Source of the DNA: Batillaria attramentaria
Lineage: Eukaryota; Mollusca; Gastropoda; Batillariidae
Assembly (NCBI GenBank): GCA_018292915.2
Contig: JACVVK020000339.1
Location: 135,001 to 199,000, forward strand
Length of the DNA stretch: 64,000 bases
Reading direction: 5' to 3'
Positions 13,270 through 55,049 of the stretch are shown in pieces (position 1 is the first letter of the stretch; every line of letters starts with the position of its first letter). The translations under genes and the position numbers were made by a program. The notes beneath the pieces were generated by a model, which was given only the letters and a program-made list of their open reading frames with translations, ran no database searches and had not been told where the DNA came from.

Positions 13270-14208
13270 ATGTCAAATGCCAGATGCTATAAATGTATGC
13301 AGAGAGGACATGAACCAAGCAACTGTTCCGTCCTGCGGTGCAGCAAATGTCAACAACTAGGACACACAGACTCGGGCTGTACCGCTCACCAATGCAGTAG
13401 ATGTCAACAACTGGTACACGTCGGAAGCAACTGTCCGGTAGTAGATGCCGAAAACCTCTGGCTTCAGTCTGTAGATGACTGGTACCCCAACCTCCACAGC
13501 CAAACCTACTTTCTCCCTCCGCTTCACTTCAACAGAGTGCCGTACGAGGTTGAGAGTGTGGCCGGACAGACCGTACTCGTTTCAAAAAAGCCCGGTCACG
13601 TTCCCGTTAACCCCGTTCCCGTTAACCCCGTTCTCAGCGGTCCTCCCCCTCAGCCTAACCCCCCACCTCTAGCATCCCGAGTGTGGCCTGACCAACCAGT
13701 GCCCCCTAGTGACCAGCCTGGTAAACCCATGCCCCGGGTTGGTGACAGAGACGTTAGAGAGGATCGCGCCTTGCAGAAAGTTCTGCAGTCCATTCGGCAA
13801 CTGGCGGAGAGGAGGCAGGAGGTCATGATGGTACTGTCCCAGTTACAGTTCAGGAAATACCTGGACAACCAAGTCGATCCAATCACTGCAGCAGCTACCC
13901 GCCTGCTCCCACGACCCGCCACCCTGGGTAATCCGGACGGGGAACTTGACGTGTTGATAATAAGTCGTAATTACGGTATGATAGTTGGTGAAGTGAAATC
14001 AGTGGGAGCCAGCACCCAGCTCACCACGGACGAACTGATAGTGACAAGAGTGAAGCAAGCCGTGAAACAGCTGAAGAAGGCCGGTGATACCGTGAAAGAC
14101 CTGGTGTCAGACCTGGCGTCCGTCAACGTGACAAGAATACTGATGCTGCCAAACATCACATCCCAGCGACTGATGACAGCTTTAAGTACCGACCCCGAGA
14201 CTGAACAG
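13270..14208 (+). CDS. Gene 1 exon 1: zinc knuckles and NERD-like core
   Basis: Codes 313 residues and ends phase 0 at CAG|GTGAGA. The knuckles are CYKCMQRGHEPSNC, CSKCQQLGHTDSGC and CSRCQQLVHVGSNC, the third with Val for the usual Gly. The nuclease core reads GELDVLIIS...MIVGEVKS. Its amino-acid identity to gene 2 exon 1 is clearly lower than for exons 2-4. Confidence 0.85.
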
Positions 14209-52800: not shown

Positions 52801-55049
52801 GTACACAGTAGTGGAAGTAAGTAGTTGTAATAGCAGCAGTTGTAGTAGACGTTGTTGTTGTAGTAGTAGACGTTGTAGTAGTGGTAGTAGTAGTAGTAAT
52901 GGTAGTACATGTATTCGTCTCAAGTACTATGTAGAAACTGTAAAATGAAACCCTTATAAAAACAGAATGTTGTGGTAAACCTCCCTGTGACCTTGAGACT
53001 GACAGTGGGAGTGTATTGGTGTCTACTGTACTGACTGTTGATCAGTAATAAGTATAATAAGTAGAACTATTAACTGTTGTCCGCAGTGTTTGTGTTCAGT
53101 ATTCACCGAGGTAATGTTACATCATCAACACTCCCTCCTTCCACACAGGAACGGGCAAAACGGTCGTGCTGACACTAAAGGGCATGCAGTGGAGGCAGCG
53201 GGGAAAGGACGTTCACTTGTTGAGTTCACACGATGAGAGTCGTGCCGTCATCATACTTATGGAGCAACAGCTGCTGCACGCCTCGGGGGGTGGTCCAACA
53301 GCAACACCAGCAGCCGCCCCGGGGGGTGGTCCAACAGCAACACCAGCAGCCGCCCCGGGGGGTGGTCCAACAGCAACACCAGTAGCCGCCCCGGGGGGTG
53401 GTCCAACAGCAACACCAGCAGCCGCCCCGGGGGGTGGTCCAACAGCAACACCAGCAGCCGCCCCACGCGTCCACCGCCATATGTACAACTTTAAGAACAA
53501 GACAGACGTGGAGACCGCTGTCAACGAACTGGCGGCAGCCGCGAATAATGGAGAACTTTACATCATCGCCGATGAGGCATTTTATGGCGAGTAAGTTGTA
53601 CTGTGATGACGGGACACACACACACACACACACACACACACACACACACACACACACACACACACACATATATATATATATATATATATATATATATATA
53701 TATATATATATGTACGCACGCTCACACGCACGCACGCATCCACACAGAGCGACAGAAATAGCATAAAGAGAGAAGATTTTTACCTACTGATGACGACAAA
53801 TACTGTGTTATGACGTCACACATCCCCAAGGACAGAGCAAAGCCAAAATAACGTCATTAACAGCCGCCTGAAACCGACAAGTATGACGTCACTGCCAACA
53901 CCCTGACTGACTGTCTCCTCTCCATTCTCTGTAACAGTGACTACAACACTAGCGGCAGGTTCTCCGAGTTCGTCACTCACCTGTCAAACCGTGTTCCCTC
54001 CCTACACCTGTGGGCAGCGGCAGTGGACCGTGTCCGGGTACCGCCGTGTGTTTCTGTGGAAACCCTCACCCGCCCACTGCGCTGTCCGCCGGCAATTGTC
54101 ACAGAAATAAAGAAGTCACTTGATATTGATGGTAAGAAAGTCCTGGGGTACAGCAGCAGCGCCACCCCCGCCCCGACAGACGGCCCCGAGGTCAGGAGGT
54201 TACATCACGCGACATGGACACTGGAGTCTGTCACACCATTACCTGGTCACACAGGGCGCCGGCCAGAGAACTGTGAACGTTGTGCGGACAACATCGTCAA
54301 CTTACTGGTGGAGCTGCGGGTGGGTCAGTCGGGTATGTGTCACGTGTACCACTCGCTCACTCGTTCATTCACGCACTCACCCACTCACTCACCGAGTTTA
54401 GATCTGTCCTGCTCGCTCGTTCCCTTTCATTCGTTCATTCATTCACTCACTCACTCTATCGCTCTCTTGCTCGATTTTCTCTCGCTCACTCGCTTTACAC
54501 ACAGATAACCGTTTGTTGTTTGTATGACGTCATCGCTCACACACTCGCTAGCGTTAGGTCGGTTGATACGACTACGACTACCACAACTACACCACCACCA
54601 CCACTACCAGCAGACGATGTGTATAAGCCGTTGTTGTGGTTGTCGTGTCACCAGGTCATGACCTGCAGTACCGGGACACCGTCATCCTGTGTAATGAACC
54701 ACGTGACGACCTACCTGTGGTCAGCAGACTCCGTGCGCGCGGCCTGCCCGTACAGGTGGTGACGTCACGTGATGATGAAGCTGCCATCAGGGACGTGGCT
54801 GTCGCCATGAAGGACACAATCGTGGTGACAGACTGGCGTGTTGTGACAGGGCTCGAGAGGCGAGTCGTTGTTGTCGTGGGGGAATGGCGTGTTGTTGATG
54901 ATGCTACAGAGAGACTGAGATCCATGTCCCGCTCTACATCACTCGTTGTACATGTTGGTAATCTTACTGATCTTGATCCCTCCAGCCCTGTCACTAGTGA
55001 TGATGATGATGATGATGATGATGATGATGCACAACCCAAACACGCTTAA
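48719..55049 (+). CDS. Gene 2: CCHC zinc-knuckle / NERD-like nuclease / SF1-like helicase (six coding exons)
   Basis: Joining 48719-49807, 51195-51346, 51748-51944, 53149-53590, 53938-54332 and 54655-55049 gives an 889-codon frame with GT-AG junctions in the same phases as gene 1. Two knuckles (CYKCGQPGHIARNC, CYRCQQLGHLAKNC) are followed by a Gln/Pro-rich linker, then the NERD/PD-(D/E)XK-like core (D277, E291-V-K293). The helicase module has LFPDQ, GPPGTGKT (K483), five GGGPTATPAAAP-type repeats, ADEA (621 onward), TGLERRVVVVVG and SRSTSLVVHV. It ends with an Asp tract from a GAT repeat. NERD-helicase fusions are known from prokaryotic proteins acting on nucleic acid. A role in defence against viruses or transposons is inference. 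The start ATG 48719 follows acceptor TGTATTTCAG; an upstream in-frame start at 48653 would lie in the presumed intron. Of the two genes, this copy looks complete. Confidence 0.85.
49811..49862. repeat. (CT)n after exon 1 donor
   Basis: CT run starting within five bases of the donor of gene 2 exon 1. Confidence 0.95.
49868..50006 (+). mobile_element. SINE-1 in intron 1 of gene 2
   Basis: GTAGCCGAATGGTCGAGCAT, a B-box-like GAGTTCGAATCCCAG, and tail GTGGTGGAAAAGGACGCTAGAC. It lies between CT and CA runs. Confidence 0.8.
50007..50152. repeat. (CA)n-(CT)n microsatellite
   Basis: About 62 CA units followed by about 11 CT units. Among the longest simple repeats in the window. Confidence 0.95.
50487..50795 (+). 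mobile_element. SINE-2, tRNA-headed
   Basis: A-box-like GTGGTCTAATAGGTAGCGCG and B-box-like GGGTTCGAGCCCA lie 76 bases apart. A body with CCGGGTTTTCCGGCTGTCC follows, and the 3' end is GGGATAATAAAGTAG followed by A-rich sequence. Different family from SINE-1. Confidence 0.75.
51109..51190. repeat. (TG)n abutting exon 2 acceptor of gene 2
   Basis: About 40 TG units end only a few bases before the exon, with TTCCAG as acceptor. Start of duplication copy B. Confidence 0.95.
51195..51346 (+). CDS. Gene 2 exon 2
   Basis: Same length and phases as gene 1 exon 2, with Asp at two positions where gene 1 has Asn and Ala. Preceded by about 40 TG units and TTCCAG. Confidence 0.85.
51424..51640 (+). mobile_element. 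(CT)n/(C)n followed by SINE-1, copy B
   Basis: Same SINE as 23063-23241, with part of the tRNA-like head replaced by C and CT runs. Followed by (TG)n at 51663-51716. Confidence 0.8.
51748..51944 (+). CDS. Gene 2 exon 3
   Basis: FCGPATS start, LFPDQ, no DPQKPQ repeats, and LLWGPPG at the donor CCAG|GTATTG. Confidence 0.85.
52024..52912. repeat. GTA/GTT/GTG minisatellite in intron 3 of gene 2
   Basis: Counterpart of 23700-24422, longer by tandem gain and by a SINE fragment. Confidence 0.9.
52643..52755 (+). mobile_element. 5'-truncated SINE-1 inserted in the triplet array
   Basis: Begins GATCCCGGCTGGGGCC and ends with ACGTTAAACCCCCAAACACC and a C-rich tail. Copy A reads straight through this point (near 24273), so the insertion is specific to copy B. 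Confidence 0.8.
53149..53590 (+). CDS. Gene 2 exon 4
   Basis: Completes GTGKT, carries five 12-residue repeats, and ends at ADEAFYG. Outside the repeat, the encoded protein is identical to gene 1. Confidence 0.85.
53286..53465 (+). repeat. Coding VNTR, 5 x 36 bp
   Basis: Five units of GGGPTATPAAAP, the third with Val for the first Ala of AAAP. Confidence 0.95.
53616..53710. repeat. (AC)n-(AT)n microsatellite
   Basis: As 25055-25148, with a longer AT part. Confidence 0.95.
53938..54332 (+). CDS. Gene 2 exon 5
   Basis: Begins with a DDYNTSGRFSE context and lacks the Gly-Asp-Phe triplet of gene 1. It has Lys where gene 1 has Glu at three sites. Confidence 0.85.
54655..55049 (+). CDS. Gene 2 exon 6
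   Basis: Encodes the helicase C-terminal motifs and a full acidic tail (SPVTS plus about ten Asp, then AQPKHA). About 19 replacement codons against one silent codon separate it from gene 1 exon 6 in the alignable part. Confidence 0.85.

Follow-up and report, generated by a model that had tools for sequence, protein, structure and literature searches.

Two Batillaria attramentaria genes joining zinc knuckles, a predicted NERD-type nuclease and a predicted helicase belong to a large snail family resembling Schlafens

The 64,000-nucleotide stretch of Batillaria attramentaria DNA analysed here (the window; contig JACVVK020000339.1, positions 135,001 to 199,000 of the forward strand) is animal DNA rich in simple repeats and transposon frames. 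It carries two related loci, gene 1 and gene 2, and these raise the question of what an animal uses such an assembly of zinc knuckles, nuclease and helicase for. The reading we consider probable is that each gene encodes one protein joining CCHC knuckles to a predicted nuclease and a predicted helicase, and that the family acts in Schlafen-like innate defence, binding, translocating along, and cutting foreign or transposon nucleic acid. An immune role for the family is suggested by the comparisons described below, and the recognition of foreign nucleic acid, proposed in a first-pass annotation of this DNA, may now be argued from evidence of expansion and selection as well.

Reconstruction from splice sites gives six exons for each gene and proteins of 820 and 889 residues, in agreement with the first-pass annotation. 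Each of the ten introns has GT-AG ends and the reading frame is unbroken, although phase is held only when exon 2, located in three-frame translation, is included. Both spliced proteins have the claimed domain order of CCHC knuckles, NERD-type PD-(D/E)XK core and superfamily 1 (SF1) helicase. Gene 1, on the plus strand, begins with an exon (13270–14208) that holds three CCHC knuckles found by motif pattern (13285–13434; individually 13285–13326, 13339–13380 and 13393–13434), an N-module and the NERD core, in which the predicted active site D227...E241-V-K243 lies at 13948–13998 and Q267 within 14053–14073. Exon 2 (22766–22917) is followed by exon 3 (23347–23612), with the Q-motif LFPEQ (23468–23482) and the start of Walker A, and exon 4 (24662–25031), with the remainder of Walker A, three 36-bp repeats (24799–24906) and the Walker B DEA. 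Exon 5 (25374–25771) contains the motif III-like LHLWAA, PLRCPP and CERC, and exon 6 (26094–26431) the motif V-like VTGLERR, the motif VI-like SRSTSL and the stop codon.

Gene 2 is also on the plus strand. Its exon 1 (48719–49807) holds two CCHC knuckles (48761–48802 and 48815–48856), the N-module and the NERD core (49541–49597); exon 2 spans 51195–51346, exon 3 (51748–51944) has the Q-motif LFPDQ and the start of Walker A, and exon 4 (53149–53590) the remaining part of Walker A, five 36-bp repeats (53286–53465) and Walker B. Protein-changing differences from gene 1 are over-represented in both exon 5 (53938–54332) and exon 6 (54655–55049), and exon 6 carries the V-like and VI-like motifs and an acidic tail. 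The gene 1 stop (26429–26431) falls 26 residues before that of gene 2 (55047–55049), and gene 1 does not have the acidic tail. The helicase contains a 12-residue repeat (GGGPTATPAAAP) that separates Walker A from Walker B, with three copies in gene 1 and five in gene 2; in a relative, P0017, a low-complexity insert occupies this part of the protein.

The zinc knuckles are firm as motifs, with three CX2CX4HX4C matches in gene 1 and two in gene 2; when the residues of each protein were shuffled 20,000 times, only 4 shuffles contained at least one such match. Pfam zf-CCHC matches gene 2 at 2.8e-15; gene 1 exon 1 on its own scores 0.1, below the cut-off, and the whole gene 1 protein is not matched. 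Since a single open exon encodes both the knuckles and the nuclease, their fusion does not depend on the splicing model. The label "retroviral-type" in the first-pass annotation proves not to be specific: the weak sequence matches of the knuckles include both retroviral nucleocapsids and Lin28, and cellular CCHC proteins, CNBP among them, have knuckles spaced in this way. The window knuckles resemble those of CNBP- and Gag-type proteins, and differ in being fused to a nuclease and a helicase. No capsid, protease or polymerase was matched by Pfam in either window protein.

To place the other domains we drew on 174 distinct listed relatives from three protein searches; the first two ran up to a ceiling on candidates, the second contributing the best 120 of 129 matches, whereas the third (44 matches out of 6,624 candidates) stayed below it. 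Both window genes carry the D, E and K catalytic residues of PD-(D/E)XK nucleases, and D227, E241, K243 and Q267 (gene 1 numbering) are invariant among 40 chosen members. In gene 1 the predicted strands 226–232 and 236–242 are followed by a predicted helix, 254–278, which holds Q267, and this arrangement about D227/E241/K243 supports the NERD-like nuclease first proposed. By a single pattern, the D-E-K core is intact in 128 of the 152 cores located among the 174 proteins; two of the 24 exceptions, P0120 and P0170, have an intact motif elsewhere. The likeness to NERD (PF08378) lies in the D-x13-E-x-K then Q arrangement and the predicted fold, and relatives P0074 (28.5 bits) and P0101 (25.2 bits) pass the gathering score of 22.1, with 10 of 30 members matching at E<=0.1. 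The window copies differ in that the PF08378 hidden Markov model (HMM) finds no match in them, nor any across the source genome. Of the HMM matches anticipated for the spliced proteins, zf-CCHC was therefore recovered in gene 2 and NERD in neither gene. The nuclease and helicase folds of the window proteins stand as predictions.

For the helicase, the Q-motif, both Walker motifs and the V-like and VI-like blocks can be identified, as expected of a predicted SF1 enzyme with two RecA lobes. With the SLFN-g3 helicase model (PF09848), 14 of 30 members give a match at E<=0.1, the strongest at 1e-3, and the three members seen in detail score under the 24-bit cut-off. NCBIfam gave scattered ATPase matches, and a viral fold library matched helicases and replicases. 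In a predicted model of one Pomacea relative the top fold match is human SLFN11, tied with UvrD by VIA. The best whole-fold match of the modelled protein is thus a vertebrate Schlafen, an identity that the first-pass annotation had not raised. In the same fold match the nuclease region overlies the Schlafen "linker", described in the available part of a structure paper as a domain of unknown function (PMC8789055).

The resemblance to vertebrate group III Schlafens (SLFN5, SLFN11, SLFN14) has clear bounds. Unlike them, the window proteins have no Schlafen core RNase domain detectable by Pfam at E<=10 (a search in which HMMER filters may lose very weak matches) and no SWADL; the snail proteins have D/E/K nuclease residues in the linker-like domain, and their front modules are CCHC, KH or immunoglobulin. 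The pattern SW(A/S)(V/G/L)D(L/I/V), given as the Schlafen linker motif in the accessible text of PMC8875196, occurs in neither window protein and in none of the 174 listed relatives. The SLFN catalytic centre has been likened to restriction enzymes (PMC12215978, excerpt). No link between the Schlafen linker and PD-(D/E)XK was found in the literature passages searched, where the bracketed term is unsearchable and from which most subscription papers fall outside.

The architecture has counterparts in prokaryotes. By domain order the window genes, with NERD followed by a UvrD-type helicase in one protein, resemble the prokaryotic candidate defence proteins modelled in PADLOC as C3a187 ("NERD+UvrD") and RTasNERD-Hel, in which NERD likewise precedes an SF1 helicase. 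At E<=0.1 these models match 13 of 40 (best 3.5e-6) and 14 of 40 members (best 1.5e-6), respectively, although other PADLOC P-loop models match more members. Among the alignment spans seen, only that of P0052 covers both domains (residues 154–450 to profile positions 48–283 of 559, E 0.0019), the others covering one. Prokaryotic defence NERD-helicases, which the first-pass annotation had raised, are on this evidence weak sequence relatives; the snail genes differ from them in their five introns, conserved N-module, RNA-binding or receptor fronts and large clustered expansion. The available portions of published work place NERD in Nhi-like and Mokosh type I defence systems (PMC10952713) and in PglW (PMC12839542), and describe it as recurrent in bacterial defence (PMC10853773). 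Pattern matches on bacterial and archaeal contigs (594) and on viral contigs (600) yielded no relative confirmed by tblastn. A literature search by title returned no paper on mollusc NERD-helicases, Pomacea NERD or mollusc Schlafen-like helicases of this kind.

The extent of the family was assessed by a protein search of the source genome (715 Mb, 863 contigs) with gene 2 exon 1 as query. There were 176 matches, with 39–100% identity among the matches listed. Places reaching past residue 121 number 104 as listed, on 38 contigs with 50 on four of them; this figure leaves out N-terminal pieces and unlisted matches, counts places and not genes (one gene may give two rows), and may be inflated by haplotype duplicates. 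Only four of the 104 have an internal stop, and 101 span the D-E-K stretch. The "two-gene family" of the first-pass annotation is rejected on this count, in favour of about 100 places. We fetched 30 loci, being the best matches and not a random sample, of which 29 could be read (L028 was unreadable by pattern). At least one knuckle stands in frame with an intact nuclease core in 28 of these 29, gene 2 itself included. Of the 29 oriented copies, each taken with about 1.5 kb of flank, 21 have exon 2 downstream of exon 1 and five have exon 3; exon 2 is whole at 90–98% identity in 20 of the 21, the last being the window's own copy, cut at the stretch end.

Named relatives, among the matches listed, represent at least five snail species: Batillaria attramentaria, Pomacea canaliculata, Littorina saxatilis, Babylonia areolata and Nucella lapillus, the species being assigned from protein names and some rows being isoforms of one locus. 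Batillaria and Pomacea are caenogastropods, as are Littorina, Babylonia and Nucella. Pomacea alone has at least 94 LOC identifiers, 53 of them within one number block. A tree of 85 of the 174 relatives and the two window genes contains species-specific clades of 15 Littorina proteins (support 1.0) and 32 Pomacea proteins (weak support, 0.537), and the window genes cluster with Batillaria P0002, P0008 and two further proteins (support 0.969). Single-frame relatives on contigs of 2.5–3.6 kb, such as P0014 (739 aa on 2,466 nt) and P0012 (937 aa on 2,977 nt), appear to be spliced transcripts, as these small contigs leave scant space for introns.

The front of the protein is variable. None of the 174 listed relatives, which come from public protein sets, has CX2CX4HX4C knuckles; their front modules are KH, immunoglobulin with a membrane span, or low complexity, and KH_1 matches 6 of 30 members at E<=0.1 (best 4.7e-11). 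The zinc knuckles are thus one of several front modules in the family, common among the best matches of the source genome, and in Pomacea KH and immunoglobulin take their place.

Several relatives have unusual features. Four Pomacea loci (P0040, P0046, P0128–P0130 and P0146) have immunoglobulin domains, a hydrophobic span and the NERD region in one predicted protein, and all four are missing one catalytic residue by pattern (G replaces D in P0040 and P0046, and K replaces E in P0128–P0130 and P0146); Walker A is present in P0040 and P0046 and absent from P0128 and P0146. These could be regulators or decoys, or else gene-model artefacts. Pomacea P0069, P0114, P0126, P0133, P0134, P0136, P0140 and P0152 have no Walker A match and have the nuclease E and K replaced, mostly by N and M, and KH_1 is above cut-off in P0114 and P0152; judged from their sequences, they are possibly an inactive regulator class. 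Batillaria P0001, P0003 and P0004 contain a stretch that, compared by eye, is close to a transposon-like frame at 15218–15497, and these stretches may be mis-annotated intron 1 insertions.

The two window genes differ in age along their length. A recent segmental duplication (copy 1, 22716–27341, plus strand; copy 2, 51147–55919) covers exons 2–6 and downstream DNA, including non-genic flank, whereas the exon 1 pair is older, with a synonymous divergence (dS) of ∼0.75 versus 0.05 and a nonsynonymous-to-synonymous ratio (dN/dS) of ∼0.33. Between the genes, exons 5–6 differ at 42 of 524 nonsynonymous sites and 5 of 184 synonymous sites (nonsynonymous > synonymous, p 0.007), and introns 4–5 with the 3' flank have 16 differences in 1,503 sites. 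The nonsynonymous rate is 7.5 times that of the flanks, or 6.4 times with gap-adjacent codons removed; removing ten codons about every gap leaves 26 nonsynonymous differences in 384 sites (p 3.3e-9). As the ratio of nonsynonymous to synonymous differences (pN/pS) is ∼1 across exons 2–6 as a whole, the excess is local to exons 5–6. Eight sequences each have a different pair of residues following "ILC" or its equivalent, and P0002, a ninth sequence, has "ILA" at this point.

Elsewhere in the window, the stretch 27341–35326 interrupts duplication copy 1 between the genes and holds a non-LTR retrotransposon (28450–33683, minus strand) with an open 1231-aa frame for endonuclease, reverse transcriptase and RNase H, together with a frame of 514 aa in which knuckles were recognized by eye and Pfam matched nothing. 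A long diverged tandem array with plus-strand open frames lies at 8874–12103.

How might these proteins act, and what else could they be? Under the defence reading, the front module (knuckles here, KH or immunoglobulin elsewhere) would select the ligand, with the knuckles capturing nucleic acid; the helicase would translocate on the strand with ATP, feeding the nuclease, which would cut the strand so supplied. Zinc knuckles and helicases are found in mobile elements, and together with 176 matches at 39–100% identity among those listed this might suggest that the genes are enzymes of such an element, accounting for their number. We rejected this as very improbable, no search having been aimed at terminal repeats or target-site duplications: the 104 listed places are confined to 38 of 863 contigs, the genes have five introns, and the duplicated stretch is a genomic segment that takes in non-genic flank. 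Moreover, homology to other copies stops at exon edges with L027 as query and in most copies starts at the acceptor with L001, close copies sharing flanks too, and homology so bounded is easier to explain by selection on a coding exon than by a mobile unit.

A closer competitor, although still unlikely, is genome defence against transposable elements by a piRNA or RNA decay route, not antiviral, in which the knuckles bind transposon RNA. CCHC and KH are mostly RNA-binding types, and the window is retroelement-rich, with a long interspersed nuclear element bearing a long open frame between the genes; the predicted membrane-anchored immunoglobulin members in Pomacea suggest instead the sensing of outside agents. 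Somewhat more doubtful is a DNA repair or replication-fork nuclease-helicase that resolves DNA ends in the manner of Dna2, AddAB or a UvrD partner and is multi-copy by chance. Repair enzymes are usually low-copy and common to most animals, whereas all named matches here are snails, with about 100 places in one genome, and the differing front modules, the fast-changing exons 5–6 and the RNA-binding character of KH and CCHC fit such a role poorly.

We return to the Schlafen-like defence reading. A wider proposal, which we offer only tentatively, is that NERD nuclease-helicases grew in caenogastropods into a large, modular and rapidly changing arsenal that parallels the vertebrate Schlafens, with swappable RNA-binding or immunoglobulin fronts, that the Schlafen linker is a decayed PD-(D/E)XK nuclease, and that Schlafens arose from a NERD-helicase that later gained the RNase core. 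The overlap with the linker, whose function is given as unknown in the accessible part of PMC8789055, offers a testable origin for that domain. An architecture known from prokaryotic defence is now seen in an expanded animal gene family, and if our reading is true, molluscs would possess about 100 copies of an effector family directed against viruses or transposons, with differing sensors.
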